The position numbers and the translations under genes were made by a program. 42,292 nt of DNA from Nitrospirales bacterium (lineage in GTDB: Bacteria; Nitrospirota; Nitrospiria; Nitrospirales; UBA8639): the NCBI GenBank assembly GCA_021604105.1, contig BQIW01000035.1:1-42292 (forward strand), written 5' to 3'. The notes under the pieces are model-generated. The model saw only the letters and a program-made list of their open reading frames with translations. It was not told where the DNA came from and did not search any database. Shown in pieces: positions 22,928-39,599 of this stretch (the stretch's first letter is position 1; each line of letters starts with the position of its first letter).

Positions 22928-24286
22928 CTACACCTCAATCCCATATTCCTTGATTTTATATTGGAGTGATCTCACACTAATCCCAAGGAGTTTTGCAGCC
23001 TGTTCACGATGATGGGTAACTTCCACGAGGGTTCGGCGGATGACTTCCCGTTCAATGTCTTCGAGAGGGGTTCCAAGGGAGATCACCATCCTGCTTCCGG
23101 GATTGACACTCGTTCGAATTTCTTCTGGAAGATGATCGGGCTGAATAGCGTGCTCCTTCACCGTCACGACCAGACGCTCAATAACATTCCGGAGTTGACG
23201 GATGTTACCCGGCCATTGGTACTGAACCAGAAATCTCAGAGAGGCGGGAGAGAGGGTTTTAAGAGAAATCCGGTGCTTCCGGGCAAATTCCTTAAGAAAA
23301 TAGTCGAGCAGAACGGGGATATCCTCACGACGCTCTCTCAGGGGGGGAAGATGAATCGGCACCACATTGATGCGATAAAAAAGATCTTCGCGGAATTGTC
23401 CGGTTTCGACCAACTGCGGCAAATTGCGGTTGGTGGCGGCAATTATCCGGGTGTTGACGGTGATCAGGTTTTTCCCTCCCAGTCGCCGGAATTCACCGGT
23501 CTCTAAGACCCGGAGAAAATCCACCTGGGCTTTTAAGGGAAGTTCGCCTAACTCATCAAGAAAGAGGGTTCCCTCATCGGCCATTTCAAATCGACCGGGT
23601 TTGGTTCCAACCGCCCCGGAAAATGCCCCTTTTTCATATCCAAATAATTCGCTTTCGAATAGAGACTCTGGAAGGGCACCACAATTCATCGTGATAAATG
23701 GGCCATAGGACCGCTGACTTTGTTGATGAATGGCACGTGCCACCAATTCTTTTCCTGTTCCGCTCTCTCCACCGATTAAAACCGTGACATCATTTTTGGC
23801 AACCATTCCAATAACATGGTGTATTCGACGCATCGCTTCACTTTCGCCGATCATCTCCTCGAGACGATTTCGTGTCTCGAGTTGGTGACGCAAATCCTGA
23901 TTTTCGGCGGCAAGCCTGTGGCGCTCCAGGGCCTTTTCGACCACAATAGAGAATCGTTCGCGGTCGATAGGCTTGGTGAGAAAATCGTAAGCTCCCAGCC
24001 GCATGGCTTCCACGGCTGTCTCAATAGAACCATAGGCTGTGATGACGATGATTTCCGTGGCAGGCCAATGAGATTTTATTTGGGGAACGAGGGCTATGCC
24101 TCCGATACCGGGCATTTTTACATCCGTGATGAGAAGGTCACTGGGCGACTCTTTCATGAGGGCCAGCGCGGATTCCGCAGAGTCCGCAGCTCTGGCAAAG
24201 TACCCTGCCTTTTCCAATATCGTCACTAATGCATTACGAATATTGATTTCGTCATCGACAACCAGAATGCGAGTTTCTTGTTTCAC
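22928..24286 (-). CDS. NtrC-family sigma54-dependent response regulator
   Basis: A 452-residue activator: receiver domain (ILVVDDE, phosphoacceptor Asp in LLITDVKMPG), an AAA+ domain with Walker A GESGTGKE, Walker B GTLFLDELGE and the arginine-finger region, and a Fis-type helix-turn-helix at the end (REQAAKLLGISVRSLQYKI). The sigma54 contact loop reads GAFSGA in place of GAFTGA. The start is GTG at 24286: it overlaps the kinase stop in a GTGA junction and has GGAGG 7 bases upstream inside the kinase gene; an upstream in-frame ATG at 24322 is less likely. It forms a two-gene unit with the kinase. The hyf cluster upstream is a possible target. Confidence 0.9.
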   Translation of the reverse strand: MKQETRILVVDDEINIRNALVTILEKAGYFARAADSAESALALMKESPSDLLITDVKMPGIGGIALVPQIKSHWPATEIIVITAYGSIETAVEAMRLGAYDFLTKPIDRERFSIVVEKALERHRLAAENQDLRHQLETRNRLEEMIGESEAMRRIHHVIGMVAKNDVTVLIGGESGTGKELVARAIHQQSQRSYGPFITMNCGALPESLFESELFGYEKGAFSGAVGTKPGRFEMADEGTLFLDELGELPLKAQVDFLRVLETGEFRRLGGKNLITVNTRIIAATNRNLPQLVETGQFREDLFYRINVVPIHLPPLRERREDIPVLLDYFLKEFARKHRISLKTLSPASLRFLVQYQWPGNIRQLRNVIERLVVTVKEHAIQPDHLPEEIRTSVNPGSRMVISLGTPLEDIEREVIRRTLVEVTHHREQAAKLLGISVRSLQYKIKEYGIEV

Positions 24287-25680
24287 ACATCCTCCACGGG
24301 GATGGCCTGGGCATTCACACACACGGGTAAACTCAATGTGACCGAGGTGCCATTGCCGGGAAGAGCGGTCACGTCAATTCGGCCTCCATGATTTTGTAAT
24401 ATTCGATGTGCCACGGCGAGGCCAAGGCCGGTCCCGGTTTCTTTTGTTGTGTAAAAAGGGTCGAAGATATGGACAAGCGATTGGGGATCAATTCCTTGTC
24501 CGGTATCGTGAACCGCAATTTCTACCCAGCGCCGCTCCTGTCGTGCGCGTTCCTGGACGATAATACGGCAGACCCCACCTACCGACATGGCCTGAAACGC
24601 ATTTATCACGATATTGATCAGAGCCTGTGCGATCTGTGTTTCGTCACCCTGAACATCCGGAAGGTTCGTGGGTACGGAAACCTGAAGCTTCTGATTCCTA
24701 TCCTCGGCTTCAAGTTGTAATAACTGTGCGACATGCGACACGAGCGACTGAATGTTGACTTCCTGAAATTGTGAAGGCCGTGATTGTGCATATCGCATAA
24801 TATTATCCAAAATAGCCGATAGCCGGCTTAATTCGGTGTTCAGTACTTTGAAATAGTCATTGGCCCGACTGGACAAGTCGGTTGTTTCTCGGAGTTCTTC
24901 TTCAAGTAAATGAAGATTGAGATCCAGGGCGCTGAGAGGATTGCGAAGTTCATGGGCGACACCGGCTGACAACGTATGCAGTGCAGTTAGCCGTTGGGCT
25001 TCGTTCACCTGTTTTTCGAGAGCGAGCCACTCTGTGACATCGTGTAGTTGAAAAATCATTCCTGCCGGTTTGCCATTATCTCCCGTCAAATCAACACTGC
25101 TAATACGGATCGTCCGTACCTCTCCATTTTGGGAATCGAAGGTAATCTCCTTGGAATGCATGGATCCGCCATGATGCAGGATTTGGGCAAGGAGGACCTG
25201 TATGGGATGCCCTTCTCCGAATACCACATCGTAATGCTTGCCCAATAGAGAGGCCGCAGGGCGCTCAAGAATGGCTTCAGCGGTTGGATTGGCTGCGGTG
25301 ATAACCCCATCTTCACTGACCGTCAACACTCCAGTCGGGATACTTTCCAGTATGTGCCGGGCTAGCCCTTTGACCTCTTCAAGATTTTGTTTGGTGTTGG
25401 CGTAATGCAGGTAGGTGACGACTGCAGAAATACCTACCCCACCGACGATAAAGAGTAGAAGTGTAATGGCGATCAAATCCCGCCGGGATTGTCCGACTGC
25501 GGCATTTAATTCCGAGGATACAGTCTTGCCTTCTGTGAGGCCAACTACCACCATACTTTGATGCTCTAGACTGAAGATCAAAAGCACTCCAACCACTACC
25601 CCCACAATAATAAGAATGGGCACGATTTGACGAATGAGCAGATTGTGAAAAAGTGGAGTTTCAGGATGAGGGCGGAACAT
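24283..25680 (-). CDS. PAS-containing sensor histidine kinase (NtrB/ZraS type)
   Basis: A membrane histidine kinase, 465 residues from the ATG at 25680. Two membrane segments (about residues 16-35 and 68-90) flank only about 30 periplasmic residues, so the input is more likely membrane or cytoplasmic. A PAS domain follows (ILESIPTGVLTVSEDGVITAANPTAE). The phosphoacceptor is His in AGVAHELRNPLSALDLNL, and the ATPase lobe has N box INIVINAFQAM, G1 DTGQGID and G2 GTGLGLAVAH. An in-frame TTG at 25719 is a weaker start. Its gene overlaps the response regulator by 4 bases. It transcribes away from the hyf cluster. Confidence 0.9.
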   Translation of the reverse strand: MFRPHPETPLFHNLLIRQIVPILIIVGVVVGVLLIFSLEHQSMVVVGLTEGKTVSSELNAAVGQSRRDLIAITLLLFIVGGVGISAVVTYLHYANTKQNLEEVKGLARHILESIPTGVLTVSEDGVITAANPTAEAILERPAASLLGKHYDVVFGEGHPIQVLLAQILHHGGSMHSKEITFDSQNGEVRTIRISSVDLTGDNGKPAGMIFQLHDVTEWLALEKQVNEAQRLTALHTLSAGVAHELRNPLSALDLNLHLLEEELRETTDLSSRANDYFKVLNTELSRLSAILDNIMRYAQSRPSQFQEVNIQSLVSHVAQLLQLEAEDRNQKLQVSVPTNLPDVQGDETQIAQALINIVINAFQAMSVGGVCRIIVQERARQERRWVEIAVHDTGQGIDPQSLVHIFDPFYTTKETGTGLGLAVAHRILQNHGGRIDVTALPGNGTSVTLSLPVCVNAQAIPVEDV

Positions 25681-27364
25681 TGTTTGTTTCTGGGTTTTAC
25701 GAATTCCTCTCGAAAACAACTGGAAACACTGATTGTTTCTCTCCTATTACCATAGGCGAAGGAAGGGGAATGGTGCAATGTCCGGCATTCGGTTCAACAT
25801 GGTTCACTCGAAATAAGGCGTTCAAACTATTTTGGTGGACATGCCCTGTTATTTGAAAAATTTTCTGTATGGCCAGGGAATATTGTGGGCACATCTCACT
25901 TCTCAGAATGATTTTGGCCAGGTCATGACGCCTTCCAGGGGTACCCATCCATCTAATCTGTTTATTAAAACCCGTTTAAGATTTGCACAAATGTGCTCAT
26001 TTTCAATTTTACACACATGGTGGATCCCCTGAAGAAAAAATCCACGATGAGCTATGTTGCTCGCATAGGGTATCTTTCCGAAATTTTTAATACGAGAGGA
26101 CGTTCGGATCCTGAACGGTGTGGAGAGGATCGAGGCCATAGCTGCATCGTGAATATGGGAAATACACCAATGATGTTTCATCCCTAACCGATATAAGTTT
26201 TCTCTAAGGGTAGGGGGTGTGATTAGCATAGATCTATGCGTAGTCCGGACATGATATCTCCAAAATTTTTTGCCCTAAATTTGGAGGCACTAGGGAATTT
26301 CTAAAAACCCGTATAAAGCATTTTCAAAAGATATGGCAAGAGCAATGGACGAGCCAAAGGTCATAGGGGAGGCGTCGCTCGTCGCTTAATGAAGGAGAGC
26401 GGAGTTTTTCCCCATGTTTGACGAATTGAATGGTTTTTAGGCGCCTATTCCGCAGGGGATTTATGCAAAATTTGCATCAGGAAGTTCAGCTTGCGGGAAA
26501 TGTATGTTGAAAAGCCTTTTATCTTTAGAGAGTTCTGATAATTAGGCATAAACATGGATGTGCAAATTTTGCATCATTACCAAGGTGGGTTTTCAGAAAA
26601 ATTGAGTCTACATGGGTCAAGGGTTCAGAGTTTTTTGCGTCAATGGCGATGTGGACAACGTCTATCGTAGCCATTTTGCTCGAAATGCAAATGGGCAGGA
26701 GCAGGCCGATTCCTACTGACGAAAGTCTTGCTGAAGTCTTGTATCTATCTGACAGCCACATGCAACCCTGTTGGTGTGTTGACTTGGCCGGAAATGTGTC
26801 GCACGTCAGCGTGATGAATCATCTAGACCGAAGACCTGCAAGGTTTGCAGACGGGCTACTGACAATGCTGTGTTTCTTTGGAAGGCCCCAACCGACTTCG
26901 AGCTAATTCTAGGGCCTTGTGCCCGTGTTACAAGGAATGTTGGAGCAGGAACAGAAGAAATATTCAAGGTATAGCTTTTGCACAGACAGGAATGTGTGCA
27001 TGAAAGCCACAACACAATAAGAGAATTTGAAGGGACGGTTAAACAGATACTTGGGAGAATGGCAATCTCCCGCATAGTCAATCAGTTTTTTGCTTCTTTC
27101 TTAGCGTGGATATTTCCCCAATCCCTAATAATTTTACGTGCGGGACACGCATTCAAGGAAACCAGAATTCCTTTGCCCCCAACAAGACTGTTCCTTAAGA
27201 AATCCGGTGTTTTCTCCTCTAATCATGTTTCTCCTCATGCGATAGCCATGAAACGTTCTTATGACCAACATTTTATACTCCTCTTCTCTCAATCAGGTGA
27301 GGCCAATTGCCTTGACACCTCCTCCTGCCTGTTTGGCAAATGAAAGTGACACTGTAAGCAAGGC
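25681..27364. other. 1.7 kb non-coding region between kinase and hyf cluster
   Basis: No recognised gene. Several open frames of 60-121 codons occur on both strands (for example 25903-26229 minus, 26978-27343 plus), but they overlap and resemble no family I know. Visible structure is the palindrome pair at 26463-26573 and a hairpin GGGAGA/TCTCCC (27053-27071) followed 14 bases later by TTTTTT. No clear sigma54 -24/-12 (GG-N10-GC) element could be fixed by eye before hyfB. The region is long enough to hold decayed genes or a small RNA. Confidence 0.4.
26463..26573. promoter_or_regulatory. Pair of matching palindromes upstream of the hyf cluster
   Basis: ATGCAAA-A-TTTGCAT (26463-26477) and TGCAAA-T-TTTGCA (26561-26573) are perfect palindromes with the same arms, their centres 97 bases apart. 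Both are followed by TCA. Two equal sites in one intergenic region suggest a dimeric regulator's operators or enhancer sites, about 0.8-0.9 kb from either flanking gene. Confidence 0.4.
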
Positions 27365-29395
27365 ATGACGATACTCCTGTTTTTGGCTCTGCTGTTGGCC
27401 TATGCGTGTGGGATGGTTCTCCCGCTGTGTTTTCCAGGTCGACCGCATATTCAAAACGTGATTGCGCATGGATCAGCTGCCGTGGCCGGGGGCCTGGGAA
27501 TAGTCCTTGGTCTGGTTGGGCTCTTTGCCTCTGAACCGCTGGTTTGGTTCCTGCCGTCTTCTATTCCTCTTCTGACGTTTTCTCTCCGGCTCGATTCCCT
27601 GAGTGCGTTTTTTGTTTTGACGATTTCCCTTGTGGGGTTGGCGGTATCCGTATTTGCCAGTGGCTACGTCCGAGAATTTTACGGACGCATTCCTGTCAGT
27701 CTTCTCGGCTTCCTTTATAACGGGTTTATCCTGTCCATGTTGTTGGTTGTCACGGCCGATAATGCTTTTTTCTTTTTAATCGTCTGGGAATTGATGTCCC
27801 TCCTCTCATACTTTCTTGTGGTATCGGAGCATGAAAAACCGGACGTCCGTTTCGCCGGATTATTTTATTTAATTATGACCCATGTGGGCACGGCATTTAT
27901 TCTGATGACGTTTCTTATGTTTTACCAGGAGACGGGTTCGTTTGCCTTTGAGTCATTTCGAAACGCCGACCAATCCCTGCCGGAGGGGTTGCGGACACTG
28001 GTTTTTTGGACAGCGCTTATCGGTTTTGGGACCAAAGCGGGCATTGTGCCGCTTCATGTCTGGTTGCCCTATGCCCATCCGGCCGCACCGTCTCATGTCT
28101 CCGCCTTAATGTCCGGTGTCATGATTAAAACGGCGATTTACGGCCTCCTTCGCATGTATTTTGATTTTCTTGGAGGGCCGTTTCCCTGGTGGTGGGGATT
28201 TGTGGTCTTGTTGGTGGGCACGGTGTCGGCGGTTCTCGGGGTAATGTATGCGTTGATGGAACATGACCTGAAGAGTCTTCTCGCCTTCCACAGCGTTGAA
28301 AACATTGGCATTATTTTAATGGGAATAGGAACAGGCATGGTGTTCTATGCCTATGATCTGCCCCATCTGGCCGCGTTGGGAATCATCGCAGGGCTCTACC
28401 ACACTCTCAATCACGCGGTGTTTAAAGCCTTACTTTTTATGGGTGCGGGTTCACTCCTATATGCTACCCACACCCGGAACATGGAAGAGTATGGAGGACT
28501 CCTTCGGCGGATGCCCTGGACCGGCCTGTTTTTCTTAATTGGGGCCATTTCCATTTCCGCCCTCCCACCGACGAATGGATTTGTCAGTGAATGGCTGGTG
28601 TTTCAGGGGCTCTTTTTAAGTTTGGAACTCCCTTCTCTGTTTTTGAAATTGATGCTTCCCATCGCTGGGGCTCTGCTTGCGCTGACTGGCGCGTTGGCTC
28701 TGGCCTGTTTTGTCAAGGCGTTTGGTATTTCATTCCTGGCTCTTCCGCGAAGCTCCCACGCACGAAAAGCTCTAGAGGTTCCTGTCCCTATGCGCGTCGG
28801 GATGGGATTCCTCGCCGGTCTTTGTCTGGTTTTAGGGTTGGGCCCCGCAGTCGTGGTCCCCCTCCTTGATCGGGTGAGTGAACCTTTTGTGGGGATATCA
28901 ATTGCCGGGAGGGTGTTTGAAATGGGTGGCTGGACACTCGCACCGGTAAGCGGAGAGTTTTCAAGTCTCTCCACTCCGGTTCTGGCGATTGTATTGGCCG
29001 GCCTCACCGGATTGGGGTGGGGACTCGCCTATGTTCTGGGAGGGAAGGGGAAAACACGATTCTATAAAACATGGGGGTGTGGGTTGAATGTGACCGCACG
29101 AATGGAATACACCGCGACCGGTTTCGTCCAGCCCATTAAGCGGGTGTTTAGCACCATTTATCAACCGACGGTCAAGCTTGAAACAGAATTTCTTGAAGAA
29201 TCGCATTATTTCGCCAAGCGGAGACATTTCGAATTTTCCATCGAACCCATCTTCCTCAAGTATTTGTATCATCCGATCCTGGAATTTTTTTCAACCCTGG
29301 CGGATCGTTCTCGTGTGATCCAGGGCGGAAATTTGTCTTTGTACCTTGCCTATATTTTTGGAACCTTGGTGTTTTTATTGATGGTAATGGGATAG
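27365..29395 (+). CDS. hyfB: HyfB-like antiporter subunit of a hydrogenase-4-related complex
   Basis: A 676-residue Mrp/NuoL-type proton-conducting subunit, the length of HyfB/HycC. The antiporter core shows the glutamate of TM5 (WELMSLLSYFLVVSE), the TM7 lysine region GTKAGIVPLHVWLPYAHP, the broken helix with SALMSGVMIKTAIYG and LNHAVFKALLFMGAGSLLYAT. The HyfB-specific tail is present (LETEFLEESHYFAKRRHFEF, then a last membrane helix). It would move ions across the membrane as part of the Ehr complex. It is the first gene of the cluster, and its stop lies 9 bases before hyfC. Confidence 0.88.
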   Translation: MTILLFLALLLAYACGMVLPLCFPGRPHIQNVIAHGSAAVAGGLGIVLGLVGLFASEPLVWFLPSSIPLLTFSLRLDSLSAFFVLTISLVGLAVSVFASGYVREFYGRIPVSLLGFLYNGFILSMLLVVTADNAFFFLIVWELMSLLSYFLVVSEHEKPDVRFAGLFYLIMTHVGTAFILMTFLMFYQETGSFAFESFRNADQSLPEGLRTLVFWTALIGFGTKAGIVPLHVWLPYAHPAAPSHVSALMSGVMIKTAIYGLLRMYFDFLGGPFPWWWGFVVLLVGTVSAVLGVMYALMEHDLKSLLAFHSVENIGIILMGIGTGMVFYAYDLPHLAALGIIAGLYHTLNHAVFKALLFMGAGSLLYATHTRNMEEYGGLLRRMPWTGLFFLIGAISISALPPTNGFVSEWLVFQGLFLSLELPSLFLKLMLPIAGALLALTGALALACFVKAFGISFLALPRSSHARKALEVPVPMRVGMGFLAGLCLVLGLGPAVVVPLLDRVSEPFVGISIAGRVFEMGGWTLAPVSGEFSSLSTPVLAIVLAGLTGLGWGLAYVLGGKGKTRFYKTWGCGLNVTARMEYTATGFVQPIKRVFSTIYQPTVKLETEFLEESHYFAKRRHFEFSIEPIFLKYLYHPILEFFSTLADRSRVIQGGNLSLYLAYIFGTLVFLLMVMG

Positions 29396-29404
29396 AGCGT
29401 ACTC

Positions 29405-30358
29405 ATGAGCGCAATCGATTTCCTGCTGATTATTCTGCAAATGCTTCTGGTCGTAGGGCTTTCTCCCTTGATTGTGGGAGTCATCCGAAGAGTTAAAGCC
29501 CATCAGCAATGTCGATATGGGGCGAGCGTGTTCCAGCCCTACTCGGATCTTGCCAAACTTTTTCGCAAAGAACCGGTTATCTCTACGACCGCCTCGTGGA
29601 TCTTCCCGGCCACGCCGTACATTCTGTTTTCCTCAACCTTGGCTGCAAGTCTGCTTGTCCCCACCATTATCGCGCCCATGCCGCTCAATTTTGCGGGAAA
29701 CATTATTGCCCTGGTCTATCTTCTGGCCTTAGGGACCTTTTTCCTGATGTTGGCGGGCCTGGATGCCGGATCTGCCTTTGGTGGAATGGGCAGCAGCCGT
29801 GAAGCCATCGTTGCTTCGCTGACCGAACCGGCCTTGATTCTGTCCTTGTTTGCCCTGGCTCTCACGGCGGGCTCGGCCAATATCAGCGCCATCGTGTACA
29901 AGACTGCGATCTTGCAGGGTATTGTGTTGGACCCTCCGCCTCACTTAATGGCATTGGTGGCACTGTTTATCATTTCGCTGGCCGAAACCGGCCGTGTGCC
30001 TGTAGATAATCCGGCGACGCATTTGGAATTGACCATGATTCATGAAGCAATGATTTTGGAATACTCCGGGCGATATCTGGCCCTGGTTGAGTGGGCAGCC
30101 GGAATGAAACTCATGATTTTTTTGACCTTGCTGGCCAACATTTTTGCACCTTGGGGCATTGCCACAACTTTGTCCCCGTCAGCTCTGGGATTGGGGTTGG
30201 TGGTTTTTGTGGGGAAAGTTGTGGGGTTGGCCGTCGTGGTTGGTGTGTTTGAATGTATGTTTGCCAAATTGCGGTTGTTTCGCGTGACGGAATTACTTGG
30301 GGCGGCCTTTATTCTGTCATTATTAGCTCTGGTGTTTTTTTATATCCTGCGGGTGTGA
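29405..30358 (+). CDS. hyfC: HyfC/NuoH-like membrane subunit
   Basis: A 317-residue homologue of NuoH/HycD, the subunit that links the hydrophilic redox arm to the membrane ion path. About eight membrane helices are apparent. Family motifs are visible: GSSREAIVASLTEPA, and AETGRVPVDNPATHLELTMIHEAM, which carries the acidic residues of the E-channel. The ATG at 29405 follows the hyfB stop by 6 bases, with a GAGCG upstream. Nothing is missing, so the membrane part of the complex should be functional. Confidence 0.9.
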   Translation: MSAIDFLLIILQMLLVVGLSPLIVGVIRRVKAHQQCRYGASVFQPYSDLAKLFRKEPVISTTASWIFPATPYILFSSTLAASLLVPTIIAPMPLNFAGNIIALVYLLALGTFFLMLAGLDAGSAFGGMGSSREAIVASLTEPALILSLFALALTAGSANISAIVYKTAILQGIVLDPPPHLMALVALFIISLAETGRVPVDNPATHLELTMIHEAMILEYSGRYLALVEWAAGMKLMIFLTLLANIFAPWGIATTLSPSALGLGLVVFVGKVVGLAVVVGVFECMFAKLRLFRVTELLGAAFILSLLALVFFYILRV

Positions 30359-30359
30359 C

Positions 30360-31028
30360 ATGCCAAATCTTCCGATCAATATCGGTTCATATCTGGTCAA
30401 CTTATGTTCGGCCCTCCTGTTGCTGACGTGTTTTGCCATCGTCGCACAACGACGCCTGATGGCCTGCGTGGACTTGTTCGCGTTGCAGTCGGTGTTTTTA
30501 GCAGTGACGGCCACGTTAGTGGCGTATTTGACCGGCATTCACCATATTTACCTGGCGGCAGTACTCACCATCGCGATTAAAGCCATGATCCTGCCACGGA
30601 TTTTAAAGAAGATCGTGAGGCAGTTAAATGTTCAGCGCGAGGTCAGTATGTATGTGAACATCCCAACAGGTTTGTTGATCTGTGGAGCATTAGTGATTCT
30701 CGCATTTTTTATTACAGAACCGATTGTTCATCTCGGATTCCTTCTGACTCAGGATTCCCTGGCGATTGCCCTGGCCATCGTGCTAATCGGATTTTTTATC
30801 ATGGTGTCCAGGTTAAAAGCCGTTACGCAAGTGATCGGGTTTCTCGTGATTGAAAACGGGCTATTTCTCGCAGCCACTGCTGCCGCCTATGGGATGCCGT
30901 TGATCGTGGAATTGGGAATCTTTTTCGATGTGCTGGTCGCGGGCTTGATCGTCGGTATTTATACCCATCAAATTCAGGAGGCCTTCGGGAGTGTGGATAC
31001 CAGTCGAATGAAGGCTCTCAAAGAGTAA
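30360..31028 (+). CDS. hyfE: HyfE/NuoK-like membrane subunit
   Basis: A 222-residue membrane protein related to HyfE, whose helices correspond to NuoK. Six to seven helices are visible, including the conserved IKAMILPRILKKI after helix 3 and VIGFLVIENGLFLAATAAAYG and VELGIFFDVLVAGLIVGIY near the end, with the conserved membrane Glu residues in IENG and VELG. The start lies one base after the hyfC stop region, giving tight coupling. Its role in ion transfer is by family. Confidence 0.88.
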   Translation: MPNLPINIGSYLVNLCSALLLLTCFAIVAQRRLMACVDLFALQSVFLAVTATLVAYLTGIHHIYLAAVLTIAIKAMILPRILKKIVRQLNVQREVSMYVNIPTGLLICGALVILAFFITEPIVHLGFLLTQDSLAIALAIVLIGFFIMVSRLKAVTQVIGFLVIENGLFLAATAAAYGMPLIVELGIFFDVLVAGLIVGIYTHQIQEAFGSVDTSRMKALKE

Positions 31029-31033
31029 ACCTC

Positions 31034-32518
31034 ATGATTTGGCCGATTATCCTTCTCATTGCTACTCCGTTCTTGATTGGTGTTAGCGGGCTTGTCGTAC
31101 GTAATCGGCAGACGCTGGATGTCCTGCATTGCGTGCAAGCCGGCATCATGGTGGTTTCGTCAATATTATTGATCGATGAGGTGTCCGTGAGCGGACCCGT
31201 TTCTTTTTTCTATTTCCTTCATGCCGATGCCATCAGCGCATGGTTTGATTTGGTGATCGGGATCGTGGCAGGGACGGGAACCTTATATGCCGTAGGGTAT
31301 GTGGGGGAGCAGTATGACCGCGGGCATGTGTCCCTCAAACGGTTTCGTCAATTTTTTCTGTTATTCGATCTGTATTTGGGGGTCATGCTGCTGGCCGTCA
31401 ATGTTGAAAATCTTGGGATAATGTGGATTGCCATTGAAGGGGCGACCTTGTCGGCCGCCTTACTGATCGGATTTGAACGGAGCAAGGGAGCCCTTGAGGC
31501 GGGATGGAAATTTGTGATTCTCAGTTCAGTCGGTATTGCTTTGGCTCTGTTTGGGACGATCCTCGTGTATTACACCTCGGAGCAACTGCTTGGGATTACC
31601 GAAGAGGCGCTGCACTGGGCGACATTGTACGAGGTCGGGGACCAACTTGATCCTTCCGCGATGAAAATTGCCTTTATTTGTATTTTGGTTGGGTACGGGA
31701 CCAAAGCGGGTCTTGTCCCGATGCATACCTGGTTACCCGATGCCCATGGAGAAGCCCCCACTCCGGTTAGTGCGATGCTTTCCGCCAATATGTTGACCAT
31801 GGCGATCTATGCGATTCTCCGGTTTAAGATCCTGACCGACCAGTCGGTAGGGACAGAGTTTACGGGAACCTTGCTCCTGGGGTTTGGATTTTTCTCCGTC
31901 GGGCTCTCCGCGATTGTCCTGTTACTTCAAGAGGATTTTAAACGACTGTTAGCCTTTTCCAGTATCGAGCATATCGGTATTGCCTTAATTGGCTTTGGTC
32001 TCGGCGGCTTGGGAGTATTTGGAGGATTATGGCATCTACTCAATCATGCCTTGGCTAAATCCGCTGCGTTCTATGGCGCCGGCCTTGTCCTGATTACCCA
32101 TGAACATAAGTTTATCGCTCGTGTCCCCGGTCTGTTACGTAAGCATCCAGCTGCGGGAGTGGCCTTGTTCGTCGCCGGGCTTGTTCTTGCCGGCATGCCT
32201 CCCTTCGGATTGTTCGTGAGTGAAATCACGATCGCCGTGAACGCCATGGCCACGGCCCCTATGATTGCGTATGGGTTTCTCGGTGTATTGACAGTGGCCT
32301 TTGCGACCTTATTGTTTCAAATCTTGCGAATGGTCTTAGGCGTGCCTATGGAAACGCACGGCTCTACCGTGGGCGTACGCTGCCGGGCCTTTTCGACCGC
32401 CGCGATAGCGGTAAACCTTGGCGCCCTAATTTTCCTGGGTTTGCATGTCCCCGATGGTCTTCATAATCTCATTGGGGCGATTCTGCCATTTTTTCATGCG
32501 GAAGGAGAGTATTTCTAA
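31034..32518 (+). CDS. hyfF: HyfF-like second antiporter subunit
   Basis: A 494-residue Mrp/NuoL/NuoN-type subunit. It shows the TM5 glutamate region GIMWIAIEGATLSAALL, GTKAGLVPMHTWLPDAHGEAP (TM7), SAMLSANMLTMAIYAILR, FSSIEHIGIALIGFG and the LWHLLNHALAKSAAFYGAG segment. These are the usual ion-path residues. It begins 5 bases after hyfE. With HyfB it gives the complex two antiporter-like modules. A remnant of what looks like a third lies directly downstream. Confidence 0.88.
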   Translation: MIWPIILLIATPFLIGVSGLVVRNRQTLDVLHCVQAGIMVVSSILLIDEVSVSGPVSFFYFLHADAISAWFDLVIGIVAGTGTLYAVGYVGEQYDRGHVSLKRFRQFFLLFDLYLGVMLLAVNVENLGIMWIAIEGATLSAALLIGFERSKGALEAGWKFVILSSVGIALALFGTILVYYTSEQLLGITEEALHWATLYEVGDQLDPSAMKIAFICILVGYGTKAGLVPMHTWLPDAHGEAPTPVSAMLSANMLTMAIYAILRFKILTDQSVGTEFTGTLLLGFGFFSVGLSAIVLLLQEDFKRLLAFSSIEHIGIALIGFGLGGLGVFGGLWHLLNHALAKSAAFYGAGLVLITHEHKFIARVPGLLRKHPAAGVALFVAGLVLAGMPPFGLFVSEITIAVNAMATAPMIAYGFLGVLTVAFATLLFQILRMVLGVPMETHGSTVGVRCRAFSTAAIAVNLGALIFLGLHVPDGLHNLIGAILPFFHAEGEYF

Positions 32519-32567
32519 ATGCCGGACCAAAATCATGTTTCGTTGACGGATTCATGAGGTTCAGGGC

Positions 32568-32999
32568 ATGGCCAAAGTTCAACCCATTACCGCGATCACA
32601 TTTCACTCCGTGGGCTTGGCTCTTGTGGGAATGTCCCTGTTTTCACTCTTTAATAGTGAACTGTTGATGATCACTTCGCTGGCTCAAATGACCTTTCAAT
32701 TTGATTCGTTTCATCTGGGATAGTTTCTGACCATTACGGTATTACATGAAATTCGAAGACTTGGAATCATCATGGTGATCGTCCTGCTATCGGTGGCGTT
32801 ATTTGGAGGATTTATCTACCGGCTGACCGGCATAGTATGGAGCACGCCACCTGAAGGAATCGGGCAAGGTGAAGACTGGCACATTGGGCAACTCCCACTT
32901 GCCTTATCGGTCTTCGCGTTGGTGTGGATGGGGTTTTATCTTCCCGCCCAGGTTGAAACTCTCTTACAACGGGCCTCCGACGTGGTGATACAAAGGTAG
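32568..32999 (+). pseudogene. Remnant of a further HyfF-like subunit with an in-frame amber stop
   Basis: One reading frame of 144 codons interrupted by a single TAG at 32721-32723. The first part, HSVGLALVGMSLFSLFNSEL, matches LFVAGLVLAGMPPFGLFVSE of the intact HyfF. The second part (LFGGFIYRLTGIVW, PPEGIGQGEDW, LPAQVETLLQRA) is the usual C-terminus of HyfF-type proteins, which the neighbouring hyfF lacks in this form. The N-terminal two thirds are absent. It sits in phase with the operon, ending 6 bases before hyfG. Unless the TAG is read through, two peptides of 51 and about 76 residues would be made. Confidence 0.75.
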
Positions 33000-33005
33000 C
33001 CAAAC

Positions 33006-34604
33006 ATGGAACCGGTATTTAATCCAGTTGAACATTTGCAATGCCTATTTGGTCCGGCGATTAACCGTGTCTCCACTAACCACGGGATTCCAGTCGTCCA
33101 TGTGCCCACCAATCAGGTATTGCCGATTACCAGATATATTCATGCCAACGAGGAACTCAGAGGAACCCTTTCTTTACTATGGGCTGTGGATCGCCGTCCT
33201 CGTGAAGAACGCTACGAACTCTGGTACTTGTTTACGCTCGCTGAATCCAAGGACTGGCTTATGGTCTCTACGGATCTCCCGGGGGAAGAACGGCTCTTTG
33301 AGTCCATTACACCCAAAATTCATGCGGCCAACTGGTATGAACGGGAAATCCGGGATATGTTCGGTCTGATCGCCCAAGGGCATCCGGACCTTCGGCGCCT
33401 GGTCCGGCACAATCACTGGCCCAAGGGTGTTCACCCGTTACACACAAATTTTCCATGGAATTCGATCTTGCAGTGGCGCCAGCCTCCCGGATCGGTCGAT
33501 GGTCATTTTATTCATGGAGAAGGCGTGTTTGAAGTGCCGGTGGGTCCTATTCATGCCGGAATCATTGAACCCGGGCACTTCCGGTTTACTGTGGCCGGAG
33601 AACCTATCATGCATCTCGATCTCCAACATTTTTGGAAACATCGTGGTGTGGAAAAGTTGTTTGAACAACAGACGTTAGCTGGAGGAGTGGCATTGGCTGA
33701 GCGAATATCAGGGGACACCACCCTTGGCCATAGCCTCGCCTATTGCCAGGCCGTAGAAACGTTATGGGAGATTCACGTCCCTCGTCGGGCCAGGTATCTC
33801 AGAAGTGTGTTTCTGGAATTGGAACGCCTCCACAACCACATTGGTGATGTGGGAGGTATTTGCAATGACACGGCCTATGCGCTAGCCCATGCTCACTGCA
33901 GCCGCTTGAAAGAACGGGTACTGCAACTGAATGATCGACTGACGGGTTCGAGATTTCTTCGAGGAGTGAATTGCGTGGGTGGGGTAGGCATCGACCTTTC
34001 AACGGATCAGTTTTCCGAGCTGGTCACCGAACTGGAGCACATTGAAAATGATTTTACCGAACTGGAACAGATTATCGCCGTCAATGCCTCGTTGATCGAC
34101 CGGTTTGAGAGCACAGGGATTCTCAAGAAGCAGACGGCTTGGGACCATGGGGTCGTCGGACTGGTTGGTCGGGCTTCTGGCATTGATCGGGATCTCCGAA
34201 GAGATCGGCCCTTTGCAGCCTATGATGAGCTTCCGGTACGTGTGGCCGGGTCTTCACATGGGGATGTGCGAGCCAGAGTTCAGGTCCGGGTAAGTGAGAT
34301 TCATGAATCAATCCGGCTCATTCGCGAGATTCAACGCCTGCTTCCTGATGGTCCGCTGAAGAGTGATCGCCAGGTGGCTCCGGACGCCGGAGCGTGGGCG
34401 CTCTCTGCGGTTGAAGGTTGGCGTGGTGAAATTTTGTATTTCCTGATGATTGGGGAACATGAACAAATTCATCGCTGTAAGGTCCGTGATCCCTCGTTTG
34501 TCAATTGGCCGGCCATTCAAATGGCGGTGATCGGGAATATTATTCCCGATTTTCCTCTCATCAATAAAAGCTTCAGTCTTTCGTATGCCGGGAATGATTT
34601 GTAA
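33006..34604 (+). CDS. hyfG: HyfG-like large subunit (NuoC-NuoD fusion) without NiFe ligands
   Basis: A 532-residue fusion: a NuoC-like domain (residues 1-150, ANWYEREIRDMFGL, HPLHTNFPW) and a NuoD/hydrogenase large-subunit domain (about 165-532). In hydrogenases the NiFe site is held by R-x-C-G-x-C and D-P-C-x-x-C. Here the first reads RISGDTTLGH (Ser235 and Thr238 in place of Cys) and the last reads KSFSLSYAGNDL at the very end (Ser526 and Gly529 in place of Cys). The His of the first motif (His242) is kept. There is no C-terminal cleavage extension. It cannot bind NiFe and belongs to the Ehr type. It is the central hydrophilic subunit with HyfI. Confidence 0.92.
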   Translation: MEPVFNPVEHLQCLFGPAINRVSTNHGIPVVHVPTNQVLPITRYIHANEELRGTLSLLWAVDRRPREERYELWYLFTLAESKDWLMVSTDLPGEERLFESITPKIHAANWYEREIRDMFGLIAQGHPDLRRLVRHNHWPKGVHPLHTNFPWNSILQWRQPPGSVDGHFIHGEGVFEVPVGPIHAGIIEPGHFRFTVAGEPIMHLDLQHFWKHRGVEKLFEQQTLAGGVALAERISGDTTLGHSLAYCQAVETLWEIHVPRRARYLRSVFLELERLHNHIGDVGGICNDTAYALAHAHCSRLKERVLQLNDRLTGSRFLRGVNCVGGVGIDLSTDQFSELVTELEHIENDFTELEQIIAVNASLIDRFESTGILKKQTAWDHGVVGLVGRASGIDRDLRRDRPFAAYDELPVRVAGSSHGDVRARVQVRVSEIHESIRLIREIQRLLPDGPLKSDRQVAPDAGAWALSAVEGWRGEILYFLMIGEHEQIHRCKVRDPSFVNWPAIQMAVIGNIIPDFPLINKSFSLSYAGNDL

Positions 34605-34752: not shown

Positions 34753-35304
34753 ATGTTTAAGATTCTCAAAAAAAGTTTCAAGACAGGAATAGTGACAGGA
34801 CAATATCCCCCTGCTCCTGCCGGGCAGAAATTTTCTGTTGCGCCGACAGCGCAAAAGAAGGCCGAACTGTTTCGAAAGTCGCTAACCATTCGTGAAGTGG
34901 ATACCGGTTCGTGTAATGCCTGTGAGATGGAAATGAATGCTTTAGCCAATCCGGTCTATGACATCGAACGCCTCGGAATTCATATTGCCGCGTCGCCTCG
35001 TCACGCGGATGCCTTGGTGGTGACTGGTCCGGTTACGGTGAGCATGGAAGGTCCGCTGAAGGATGTGTTTAAAACCACGCCCAATCCAAAATTAGTCATT
35101 GCCTTAGGTGACTGTGCCATCAATTGTGGAATCTTCAAAGGAAGCTATGGGGTGACTGGTCCGGTCGACCAACATATTCCGGTTGATGTTCGCATTCCCG
35201 GATGTCCTCCGCGCCCGTCCGAAATTATTGAGGCCTTAACGGAGCTTCGAAAAGGCGTCACGACCTTTACCAGGTGGTTTAGAAAATTCTCGGGGAATCC
35301 ATGA
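34753..35304 (+). CDS. hyfI: HyfI/NuoB-like small subunit with HycF-like N-terminal tail
   Basis: A 183-residue small subunit. The proximal 4Fe-4S ligands are intact: Cys54 and Cys57 (GSCNACEME), Cys121 (LGDCAINCG) and Cys151 (IPGCPPRP). The first 45 residues are extra: MFKILKKSFKTGIVTGQYP closely resembles the N-terminal anchor of HycF/HyfH ferredoxin subunits (K-T-G-x-x-T-x-x-Y-P), but the two ferredoxin motifs that should follow are absent. A strong GAGGAGAG site precedes the ATG. No separate HyfH gene is in the cluster. A decayed piece of a second copy lies at 38255-38400. Confidence 0.9.
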   Translation: MFKILKKSFKTGIVTGQYPPAPAGQKFSVAPTAQKKAELFRKSLTIREVDTGSCNACEMEMNALANPVYDIERLGIHIAASPRHADALVVTGPVTVSMEGPLKDVFKTTPNPKLVIALGDCAINCGIFKGSYGVTGPVDQHIPVDVRIPGCPPRPSEIIEALTELRKGVTTFTRWFRKFSGNP

Positions 35305-36331: not shown

Positions 36332-36460
36332 GCCGTTTTCTGATGATTTCCAAAAAAGATTTCCTCATGCCTCTTTCAATTTCTCCACCCGAAGGATCAT
36401 CTTCAAAGAACCATTTCAGACCGCAGCATGCGCTCTGTGGTTTTTTCAAGAGATAAATTT

Positions 36461-38191
36461 ATGTCCGTGAATTGGAATAAAATACGAACGGAATTGGCGG
36501 ATTTTAATCCTTTGCCGCGGATCCGCCTCATGCACACGAATATCGTCCCAGATATTTTATCGGGAATTACCGTAGCGTTTATTGCGCTGCCGTTGGCACT
36601 CGGTTTTGGAGTCGCCTCCGGGCTAGGGGCCATTGCCGGCATGTATGGAGCTATTGCCGGGGGGCTGTTGGGGGGACTCTTTGGGGGATCAAATATCGGA
36701 GTCAGCGGACCCACGGGTCCCAAAACCGTCCAATTGGCTCTTATTCTACAGGAGCATCAACTTCCCGATGGAACGCCCGATATCACCTTTGCTTTTGGTT
36801 GCGTTCTTTTGAGCGGACTTATCATGATTGCACTGGCCTTTATGAAGGTAGGACGATTTATTTATTACACACCCTATTCGGTGATTTCAGGATTTATGTG
36901 CGCCATCGGGGCCATTTTACTCATTCAACAGTTCCGCCCGTTCATTGGATTGCCCATTCTTCCTGATATCAGGGAGGCTTTCGTCAACATACCTTCGGAT
37001 GTGTTGAACTTCCAGGGAGAAGCCTTATTGGTTTCTTTGGTCACCTTAACCATCATTCTTTTATGGCCCAGATTTGTCAAAAACGTATGGCTCCCGTCTC
37101 CGCTCATTGCATTGTTGGCGGGGACGCTGCTCGCGCAGATGTTTCACTTTACCATTCCGTACATTCCAGAAGTTCCTACTGGTTTACCAAGCCTTCATAT
37201 TCCCACTCTAGACATGGTCGGAGCGATGTTCGTTCCGGCCGCAGCACTTGCCGGTCTGGCGGTGTACGACTCGCTGCTCACCTGTATTGTGCTTGATCAA
37301 AAAACCTCCGAGCGGCACAACAGCGATCAGGAAATCTTCGGCCAGGGGGTGGCCAACACGGCGGCAGGATTAATGGGGGGACTCACAACTGCGACGGCCA
37401 CTATTCGCAGTTTGACGGTGATTGCCTGTAATGGAAAAACCATTTTGTCGACCATGACGCATGGGATCATCCTCTTGTCATTGGTGTTAGGATTAGCACC
37501 CTTAGCCACCGCAATTCCCCTTGCTAGCCTTGCTGCCATTCTCTTCAAGGTCGGATGGGATATTTTGGATTGGAGATTTTTCCCGGTATTACGTCGGGTG
37601 TCCCGAACCGACAAAATTTGTTTTTGGTCAACATTCCTCGTCACGATGACCGTGGACTTATTGGTCGCTGTCGGAATCGGTCTGTCCATTGCCTTTTTCC
37701 GGTTTGTCAAAGAAATGAGTGAGTTAGGGGAACCCCAAATAGTCAGTCTTCAAGATCCAAAGGATCCATACCCTGGTAGTCATATGTTGGAGGCAGGGCT
37801 CCGCAGTCGCATCGGAGTCGTACAACCGGAAGGTCCTCTTTTTTTTGGTGTAGCCGATAAAGTATTTCGCATGAGTGAATTTTTTGGTCCGTATGAAGTC
37901 GTCATTCTGTCATTGAAACGTGTGCCGATCATGGATATATCGGGAGCCTTTGCCTTAGACGATTTAGTCGAATATGCCCTCAATCGTAAAACGAAAGTGC
38001 TCATCACGGAAATGATAGAACCTATTCAACAGCAGATGGAGAATTTGGGAATCCTCAAAAAAATCGGACAGCAGGCATGTTTTGACAACTTCAACGAGGC
38101 GCTTCAACAGGCCATCAATCTGCTTCACGAAAGGGACCATCCTTCTTATCCACCTGAAAATTCTGAGCCAAAATTCACCGGTCTCCAATAA
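36461..38191 (+). CDS. SulP-family anion permease with STAS domain
   Basis: About 576 residues. The N-terminal half (to about residue 400) is a SulP transporter (DILSGITVAFIALPLALGFG, the glycine-rich GGLLGGLFGGSNIGVSGPTG and the ATATIRSLTVI region). The last 130 residues are a STAS domain (VVILSLKRVPIMDISGAFAL). The family carries sulfate, bicarbonate, molybdate and others, and the substrate cannot be fixed from sequence; bicarbonate is favoured by the LCIB-like neighbour. The start at 36461 follows AAGAGA and suits the usual opening of the family; 36428 is an in-frame alternative. It is in the same orientation as the hyf cluster. Confidence 0.88.
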   Translation: MSVNWNKIRTELADFNPLPRIRLMHTNIVPDILSGITVAFIALPLALGFGVASGLGAIAGMYGAIAGGLLGGLFGGSNIGVSGPTGPKTVQLALILQEHQLPDGTPDITFAFGCVLLSGLIMIALAFMKVGRFIYYTPYSVISGFMCAIGAILLIQQFRPFIGLPILPDIREAFVNIPSDVLNFQGEALLVSLVTLTIILLWPRFVKNVWLPSPLIALLAGTLLAQMFHFTIPYIPEVPTGLPSLHIPTLDMVGAMFVPAAALAGLAVYDSLLTCIVLDQKTSERHNSDQEIFGQGVANTAAGLMGGLTTATATIRSLTVIACNGKTILSTMTHGIILLSLVLGLAPLATAIPLASLAAILFKVGWDILDWRFFPVLRRVSRTDKICFWSTFLVTMTVDLLVAVGIGLSIAFFRFVKEMSELGEPQIVSLQDPKDPYPGSHMLEAGLRSRIGVVQPEGPLFFGVADKVFRMSEFFGPYEVVILSLKRVPIMDISGAFALDDLVEYALNRKTKVLITEMIEPIQQQMENLGILKKIGQQACFDNFNEALQQAINLLHERDHPSYPPENSEPKFTGLQ

Positions 38192-38254: not shown

Positions 38255-38400
38255 CATGTCCAATTTTTTGGTTGTGAGATTTTCAAAGGAACCTAGGCGG
38301 TGATCTGTCCGGTCGACCGGCACATTTTCTTTGGTTTTCAGGTGCCTGGCTGCCTGGCGTGTCCGGCGGAGATCCATAAGGTCTTGGTCGAAATGAAAAA
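38255..38400 (+). pseudogene. Decayed fragment of a second hyfI
   Basis: Bases 38279-38400 align without gaps with hyfI 35117-35240. Shared landmarks are TTCAAAGGAA, GTCCGGTCGACC and the cluster loop. The conceptual peptide reads IFKGT-stop-AVICPVDRHIFF, VPGCLACPAEI against IFKGSYGVTGPVDQHIPV and IPGCPPRPSEI. An in-frame TAG is at 38294-38296. The N-terminal cysteines are not present, although weak similarity may extend to about 38255. It is a remnant lying just before the LCIB-like gene, which suggests that a second complex once lay in this region. Confidence 0.75.
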
Positions 38401-38447: not shown

Positions 38448-39599
38448 ATGTTTTCCTCGAATGTCGATATTAAGGCCATTCTCGGAGATTTTGTCATCGA
38501 AGGGATGATGTTCCGCTACAGCAGCTTTATGGGACGTCTGTACAATTTTTGTAGATCGTTGGGACTGGAGAAAGGGAAGATGCTTCCATCCCGTGCTTTC
38601 TGTTCGGACGAAAACCAAGGCTACCCGATTATTTTAATGGCAAAACATTTTGGAACCTTTCCCTTTAATCACGGTCGCGTGGGAGGTATTGTTTCGACCG
38701 ATCGACATGGCCCCTATGCCGAGCATGGGAAGGATCTCGTGCTCATTCATGCAAGCCATGTCGGGTATGATCCTGGTACTCACGCCTTTGGACCATACCG
38801 ACGCTTGCAGACGGAATTTTCTGAAACGCGACCTACCTGTGGGAAGATCGAGAATGTCCTGCAATGGTATGGGAATGAGTATACCTTTGCGAAGGAAAAT
38901 ATTTTTCTGGAACGTCATGACGAATATTTTATGGTCACTATCGATAATCAGTTGCTTCGGGAAAACAGGCGTGAGGGAATTTTTCTCAATATGGAGAAAA
39001 TCGTTCTGCCGGACAATAGGGGAGAATGTCATCCTCTTAAATCCTACAGCACGTCAAAATGTTATCCGGCTTCCAAGGAATTTCGTGGACTGCTCGGAGA
39101 ATCCAGGTGGCCCGTCAGTGGCCGTCGAACCATTGGTGATTGGCTATTGCCGGAACTCTTCCGATTTAAACGGGACATTCCTGATGATCCGGAAACGCAT
39201 GGCTATCTTGAGCAAAATCTGCTCAATCCCATGTCTCAAATCGTGACTTCTCAATCCCCTTTGTTGACCGCGGCCCAAGTCAATACACAAGTCGAGTTTG
39301 ATCGGACATATCGGACTCTTGTCAAAGCTGACGGCTATTCGGGTAAACAGGTGATTCTTATCTCGGGATTAAACATTGATATTTCGCCGAGAGAAGGGCA
39401 GGTTTTTCCCCTCACAAAATTCATCCCTTGGGCTGCCTTCGTCAAAGAGAAAAATGGGAAGGGGCATCTATTCGAGCAAAAGGAACTCTTTAATGAATTG
39501 CTCAATCAAAGGGAAGACAACCCGGATGAAGTTGACCTCGAGGGCGCTATCCAAAAAATGGAAGACGAAGATGAAATCAGAATAAAAATTTCTGGCTGA
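38448..39599 (+). CDS. LCIB/LCIC-like (beta-type) carbonic anhydrase candidate
   Basis: A 383-residue soluble protein. Its N-terminal half resembles the limiting-CO2-inducible B/C family: FCSDENQGYPIILMAKHFGT compares with the C-R-D-E and LLLKHWG of algal LCIB, KDLVLIHASHVGYDPG with its RYVFIAMPHIAI, and the downstream PTCGKIE with its ACGAL. This gives candidate zinc ligands Cys52, His104 and Cys131, with Asp54 near by. The C-terminal 180 residues are family-poor. No signal peptide is present, so it is cytoplasmic. AAGGAG lies 4 bases before the ATG. It is the last gene of the cluster. Assignment is by visual motif match and could be wrong; activity is unproven. Confidence 0.6.
   Translation: MFSSNVDIKAILGDFVIEGMMFRYSSFMGRLYNFCRSLGLEKGKMLPSRAFCSDENQGYPIILMAKHFGTFPFNHGRVGGIVSTDRHGPYAEHGKDLVLIHASHVGYDPGTHAFGPYRRLQTEFSETRPTCGKIENVLQWYGNEYTFAKENIFLERHDEYFMVTIDNQLLRENRREGIFLNMEKIVLPDNRGECHPLKSYSTSKCYPASKEFRGLLGESRWPVSGRRTIGDWLLPELFRFKRDIPDDPETHGYLEQNLLNPMSQIVTSQSPLLTAAQVNTQVEFDRTYRTLVKADGYSGKQVILISGLNIDISPREGQVFPLTKFIPWAAFVKEKNGKGHLFEQKELFNELLNQREDNPDEVDLEGAIQKMEDEDEIRIKISG

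Follow-up and report, generated by a model that had tools for sequence, protein, structure and literature searches.

The locus discussed here raises the question of why the small subunit of an Ehr complex begins with what looks like the membrane anchor of a different subunit, the ferredoxin subunit HycF/HyfH. The window, by which we mean the whole stretch of 42,292 nucleotides that was analysed, encodes HyfI, a NuoB-family protein, at the end of an operon. An original prediction, made from the sequence of the window, held that HyfI had kept a docking segment while the electron-entry domain was removed, which would leave the complex with a single iron-sulfur cluster and cut off from a ferredoxin donor. 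We consider it very likely, with a probability of roughly 0.85, that the window's HyfI, part of an Ehr complex, arose from a hyfH-hyfI fusion, that the ferredoxin part was lost stepwise and that the anchor was kept for membrane docking at HyfC.

The Ehr operon and its small subunit

The features on which the argument depends are the following, all on the forward strand.

27365..29395 (+): HyfB, antiporter-like subunit
29405..30358 (+): HyfC, NuoH-like subunit (PF00146), presumed docking partner of the anchor, as suggested by FHL/NDH-1L structures
30360..31028 (+): HyfE, membrane subunit (NF008556, E 1.4e-26, below the curated cut-off)
31034..32518 (+): HyfF, antiporter-like subunit
32547..32996 (+): remnant of a second, decayed HyfF (its C-terminal part), interrupted by one stop and lying between hyfF and hyfG
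33006..34604 (+): HyfG/EhrL, large subunit resembling NuoC-NuoD but lacking all four NiFe cysteines (ERISGD; SLSYAGNDL at the C-terminus)
34753..35304 (+): HyfI/EhrS, 183 aa, small subunit of the NuoB family that begins with a HyfH-type anchor
34753..34818 (+): anchor, residues 1-22, made up of a helix (2-11) and a loop (K-T-G-I-V-T-x-x-Y-P), and homologous by sequence to the HycF/HyfH N-terminus
34819..34863 (+): variable linker (identity 0.35, 32 rows), at the position of the ferredoxin domain in fused relatives
34864..35238 (+): NuoB-like domain, residues 38-162, with Cys 54, 57, 121 and 151 as ligands of an N2-type cluster

The gene set of Ehr complexes is thus present in one operon, in the order HyfB-C-E-F-G-I, with HyfI last. 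A group 4 NiFe hydrogenase would have four NiFe-binding cysteines in its large subunit; HyfG has none of the four, ERISGD and SLSYAGNDL standing at the ligand columns, and the complex is therefore an Ehr. The remnant of the second HyfF shows 38–39% identity (E about 1e-28 to 1e-31, whole window), and loci L074-L076 have a full second HyfF at the same site.

HyfI itself (34753-35304, forward strand) starts with an ATG preceded by an AGGAGAG-like site and matches PF01058 over residues 54-165 (E 5.1e-32), which places it in the NuoB family; together with its four cluster cysteines, this is what characterizes a NuoB/HycG small subunit. In complex I NuoB, the motif has an adjacent Cys pair rather than CxxC. 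The spacing in HyfI, C54-x-x-C57, is that of the hydrogenase type and sets it apart from complex I NuoB. C54, C57, C121 and C151 are invariant in a 24-row alignment and no cysteine lies upstream of C54, so both ferredoxin motifs (CxxCxxCxxxC) are missing, as had been predicted.

Several features lie around the operon. Downstream of it, a BicA-like SulP gene (36428-38191, forward strand) and an LCIB-type carbonic anhydrase homologue (38448-39599, forward strand; PF18599, E 6.7e-6) flank the remnant of a second HyfI-like gene (38273-38398, forward strand), decayed to a C-terminal piece, which has a stop and 45% identity over 42 aa (E 9e-8, whole window). SulP genes are also found near Ehr in Methylococcales and Acidobacteria loci. 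A SulP gene adjoins the operon in 8/73 anchor-only loci (the window included), 2/18 one-cluster, 1/13 two-cluster and 0/7 separate-HyfH loci, and with such low counts we do not claim a link between SulP and Ehr. On the reverse strand, an NtrC-type histidine kinase and response regulator (22928-25719) lie near the operon; a pair similar in appearance, as judged by eye, directly follows HyfI in L070. A sigma-54 pattern scan gave matches at chance level only.

The N-terminal tail of HyfI is homologous to the HycF/HyfH anchor

The first 22 residues of HyfI, MFKILKKSFKTGIVTGQYPPAP, contain the anchor segment that marks the N-terminus of HycF/HyfH (NuoI) and are identical, without gaps, to E. coli HycF at 11/22 positions and to E. 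coli HyfH at 10/22. We ranked this tail against 33,584 ATG-started 22-mers, taken from all ORFs of the fetched loci minus the HyfI-like ones. The top five scores (65, 64, 57, 56 and 49) all belong to N-termini of free-standing HyfH/HycF proteins, both E. coli ones included, and the sixth-ranked 22-mer scores 31. Shuffling the tail 200,000 times never gave a score as high as that of E. coli HycF or HyfH, so that the likeness goes beyond that of random segments. The E. coli small subunits HycG and HyfI, on the other hand, score 0 and 2 at their N-termini, and the tail thus differs from the usual small-subunit N-terminus. At the level of sequence, these comparisons establish the tail as a homologue of the HycF/HyfH N-terminus. 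The match proposed in the original prediction therefore stands for residues 1-22 (34753-34818); the remainder of the range that it had singled out (34753-34890) is mostly variable linker.

A tail HMM leads to the same proteins. It was built from 62 of 90 distinct tails of ferredoxin-less HyfI, namely those that kept the T-G-type motif (28 without the motif were left out, and tails L140, L143 and L153 were dropped for mis-picked starts), and was run on 15,387 ORFs. Two anchor-only HyfI rows missed by the filter came top; below them, down to the first unrelated ORF at 7.0 bits, stood solely ferredoxin-NuoB fusions and free HyfH, which matched at or near the protein start. This search did not recover E. 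coli HycF and HyfH among the 15,387 ORFs, and the direct 22-mer ranking was thus applied to them. Similarly, tail profile A5 had no match in G079, though G079 encodes a separate HyfH, whose anchor is longer. The tails of CEWEC-type Nitrospirota and of Rhizobiales match the anchor much more weakly, one Rhizobiales tail having a low hydrophobic moment (0.22), and it is by position and phylogeny that they would be traced back to the anchor.

The tail is conserved to the same degree as the core of the protein. Among 32 Nitrospira-type proteins, pairwise identity is 0.86 in the tail, 0.35 in the adjoining linker and 0.84–0.86 in the core; in the 26 rows of the main anchor-only group, the values are 71%, 32% and 78–79%. 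The AlphaFold2 model of the window's HyfI (mean pLDDT 82) predicts a helix at residues 2-11, a loop and then the NuoB fold, with a pLDDT of 74 for residues 1-10 and blocks of 60–74 within residues 1-40. The closest folds among the Foldseek matches listed are 7z0s_G (HycG) and 6cfw_J; for the two models searched, with 50 matches listed for each, only the NuoB/HycG domain was aligned, and these matches are thus silent on the anchor. For HycF, a passage of PMC9474812 describes an N-terminal loop and short amphipathic helix near the membrane surface, present in all structures of the complex I superfamily. In NDH-1L, a lipid is placed between NdhA and the N-terminal helix of NdhI in the relevant part of PMC7021789, and entries in PMC9783039 list mutations at or near an amphipathic helix of human NDUFS8 as disturbing assembly. 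Given the conservation of the tail, its predicted helix and the NDUFS8 assembly mutations, the simplest function for the tail would be a mechanical one, that of fastening the soluble arm at HyfC.

No separate HyfH found in the genome

Searches of the window's contig with TIGR01971 and E. coli HycF found no HyfH, in agreement with the expectation that none would lie nearby. In the whole genome (96.4% complete), they found only the NuoI proteins of two nuo operons (contigs C54 and C80) and weaker ferredoxin-like matches; both NuoI contigs also encode their own NuoB. A tail profile search of the same genome has HyfI as its sole match (E 8.7e-14, the next being 2.6), neither NuoI having a tail-type anchor. 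The single cluster that had been predicted for the complex agrees with a HyfI that has ligands for one and with the lack of an encoded HyfH, while isolation from ferredoxin would depend on whether a soluble ferredoxin can dock directly on HyfI. Across relatives, a separate HyfH is found in 0/73 anchor-only, 0/18 one-cluster and 0/13 two-cluster loci with full coverage, and in 7/7 of the loci of the class that is defined by that gene. Full coverage here means at least 3 kb upstream; 10 loci were too short, and L001 and L014-L042 were left out.

Probable intermediates in living lineages

Relatives were collected in several searches. HyfI matched 153 of 245 genomes of the phylum at E 1e-30, from which 30 loci and 40 further regions were taken for reading. 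In the class, a fusion protein (L070) used as query matched 114 of 269 genomes at E 1e-40, and only L070 itself matched over the full length. A wider contig scan kept 80 loci of 583 relatives.

These proteins fall into four states. A separate anchored HyfH with an anchorless HyfI is found in E. coli, in L072 and L073 and in the archaeal loci L117, L119, L129 and L146. In 39 homologues, HyfH and HyfI are fused in one ORF, 17 of which have two ferredoxin clusters (16 with 8/8 Cys and one with 7/8) and 22 one cluster. The anchor-only state comprises 105 rows, the window included, with some duplicates (at least the gene pairs window/L001 and L024/L074, and L051/L142, apparently the same record). 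A survey of Ehr homologues for the same tail had been proposed; the anchor-only state is common, in Nitrospirota, Methylococcales, Rhizobiales and Rokubacteria, and is not special to the window. L070, a one-cluster fusion from the window's own class, has the anchor MLKFIKQSIKTGMVTQSLPE and about 100 extra residues at the position of the window's linker. In the L112 fusion, residues 1-103 match the HycF chain 7z0s_F (E 1.5e-18) and residues 127-260 the HycG chain 7z0s_G (E 1.2e-39). Furthermore, hyfH and hyfI overlap by 4 nt in E. coli, and in the archaeal L117, L119 and L146 the hyfI ATG overlaps the hyfH stop, which would make fusion an easy step.

The one-cluster fusions also speak to the order of loss. 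In 2[4Fe-4S] ferredoxins, Cys IV-VII bind one cluster; for NuoI, we take Cys I-III and VIII to hold N6a and Cys IV-VII to hold N6b, next to N2. Cys IV-VII are kept in 22/22 one-cluster fusions, which have lost some or all ligands of the other cluster (L145 is in this class, yet retains Cys VIII), and the reverse pattern, with Cys IV-VII lost and the other set kept, occurs in 0 of the 39 fusions. The wire of complex I runs N6a-N6b-N2 according to the account in PMC7021789, and a table in PMC9783039 includes a mutation adjacent to a Cys of N6a. With Cys IV-VII always kept, it would thus be the entry end of the wire that is lost first.

A complete NiFe site is present in 0/101 anchor-only rows with HyfG, 3/20 one-cluster and 5/16 two-cluster fusions, and 2/5 rows with separate HyfH, plus both E. 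coli enzymes. L114, L115 and L125 are one-cluster fusions with all four NiFe cysteines, apparently group 4 hydrogenases with a shortened wire. L059 and L063 form a tandem pair of Ehr gene sets on one contig, with differing tail types.

Phylogeny of the four states

Trees were built from HyfG and the HyfI core, excluding tail and ferredoxin columns. In a 118-row tree, from which most of the near-copies L014-L042 were dropped, there are at least 3 changes for the anchor-only state and 5 each for the one-cluster and two-cluster fusions (starred branches). A careful tree of 43 rows (75/118 dropped) has 3 changes for the anchor-only state (5–95% range 3–3, 200 bootstrap trees), and an AU test rejects a single anchor-only clade (p 0.0025). 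The anchor-only state arose more than once. One-cluster and two-cluster fusions are placed around the anchor-only clades, and a fused clade (Desulfobacterota, Holophagaceae and others) sits on a long branch within the anchor-only rows, so that repeated loss or regain is needed and the losses can be counted only approximately. All of the window's nearest relatives are anchor-only, and L070 branches apart from them; it thus models an intermediate and not the ancestor.

Proposed history and its alternatives

We infer the order of events, the docking to HyfC and the electron route as follows. Two neighbouring genes, hyfH for the ferredoxin subunit and hyfI for the NuoB-like subunit, would have fused, after which the cluster of Cys I-III and VIII (N6a type, electron entry) would have been lost, and then the remaining N6b-type domain; the most likely course is that fusion came first and that the ferredoxin part was then lost step by step, on more than one occasion. 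What these losses would leave is an amphipathic helix and a T-x-x-Y-P loop from the N-terminus of HyfH, attached to the original start of HyfI. By analogy with HycF/NuoI, the anchor most likely rests against the membrane surface next to HyfC, the NuoH homologue, and there most likely holds the soluble arm (HyfG-HyfI) to the membrane arm. Any electrons that enter would have to reach the single N2-type cluster of HyfI directly. The idea that the docking segment was kept on a NuoB homologue and the ferredoxin domain removed thus gains from the tail statistics, from 39 fusions with one-cluster intermediates, from L112 and from the lack of a free HyfH.

The alternatives differ in where they part from this history. 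That the tail owes its likeness to HycF to convergence, as a basic amphipathic segment of separate origin, is hardly credible: with 22 residues the motif is short, and it is barely visible in some Rhizobiales and CEWEC-type Nitrospirota tails, yet HycF/HyfH N-termini take ranks 1–5 of 33,584 and 0/200,000 shuffles reach them, and intact ferredoxin-NuoB fusions begin with the same tail. For the window's tail type, the fusions, the tail HMM and the 22-mer ranking lead us to reject a chance or convergent helix. Homology would also be preserved if hyfH had first shrunk to an anchor gene, or if its 5′ end had recombined onto hyfI, with no prior fusion in the window's lineage. Such a route fits the all-anchor-only neighbourhood of the window, with L070 elsewhere in the tree; we regard it as distinctly unlikely since the anchor-only clades have one-cluster and two-cluster fusions around them in the tree, and a free anchor-only gene was not noticed in passing.

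Two further alternatives concern the source of electrons rather than the origin of the tail. The ferredoxin function might be supplied in trans, by NuoI of complex I or a small ferredoxin, so that the complex would still be ferredoxin-driven through a full wire. The genome does encode two NuoI proteins and several ferredoxin-like ORFs, but both nuoI genes share a contig with their own nuoB, and neither NuoI nor the ferredoxin-like ORFs have a tail-type anchor, the anchor site being presumably occupied by HyfI; we thus judge this very improbable. A soluble ferredoxin or flavodoxin might, on the other hand, dock directly at the vacated site and donate to the HyfI cluster, leaving the donor unchanged and the wire shorter. 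This is a serious possibility, to which we give somewhat less than even odds: the four N2-type cysteines never vary, and such constancy would be surprising if no electrons were transferred. It is compatible with fusion followed by stepwise loss, and opposes only the claim that the complex is cut off from ferredoxin. Conversely, the Ehr wire may have been trimmed repeatedly from the outside in (N6a, N6b) towards an end state off ferredoxin, a single-cluster or non-redox ion-translocating machine with another job. In the window, this might be bicarbonate/CO2 uptake, a candidate suggested by the BicA-like SulP and the LCIB-type carbonic anhydrase homologue that follow the operon. We consider this extension unlikely.

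Comparison with known systems

Complex I-type enzymes are usually viewed as fixed electron wires; here, stages of wire loss survive in living lineages. The part kept longest is the mechanical anchor, and the anchoring role of NuoI/HycF would thus be separable from its electron-carrying role. The anchor finding gives a testable prediction for an Ehr structure and suggests that an enzyme of Nitrospira, methanotrophs and rhizobia takes electrons unlike its hydrogenase relatives. In the portions of the literature searched, we found no description of an anchor on the small subunit, of a ferredoxin-small-subunit fusion or of graded decay.

The window has in common with Ehr complexes the HyfBCEFGI-like gene set and the absence of NiFe cysteines. 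Ehr was reportedly described in a founding paper by Marreiros in 2013, and an excerpt of PMC10284858 already reports it in comammox Nitrospira, with function unknown. E. coli formate hydrogenlyase and hydrogenase 4 (HycF and HycG, HyfH and HyfI) have the same two families in adjacent genes and the same anchor on HycF/HyfH but, unlike the window, keep two separate subunits, two ferredoxin clusters and an intact NiFe site. The fused NuoCD and NuoBCD of complex I are likewise subunit fusions within the Q module, and among the complex I fusions covered in the relevant part of PMC12361115 we found no NuoI-NuoB fusion. In the Q module of complex I/NDH-1, as presented in sections of PMC7021789, the N-terminal helix of NuoI lies at the NuoH-membrane junction and the wire runs through N6a, N6b and N2. 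In the window, on the other hand, both N6a and N6b have disappeared, and what is left of NuoI is its anchor alone, fused to NuoB.
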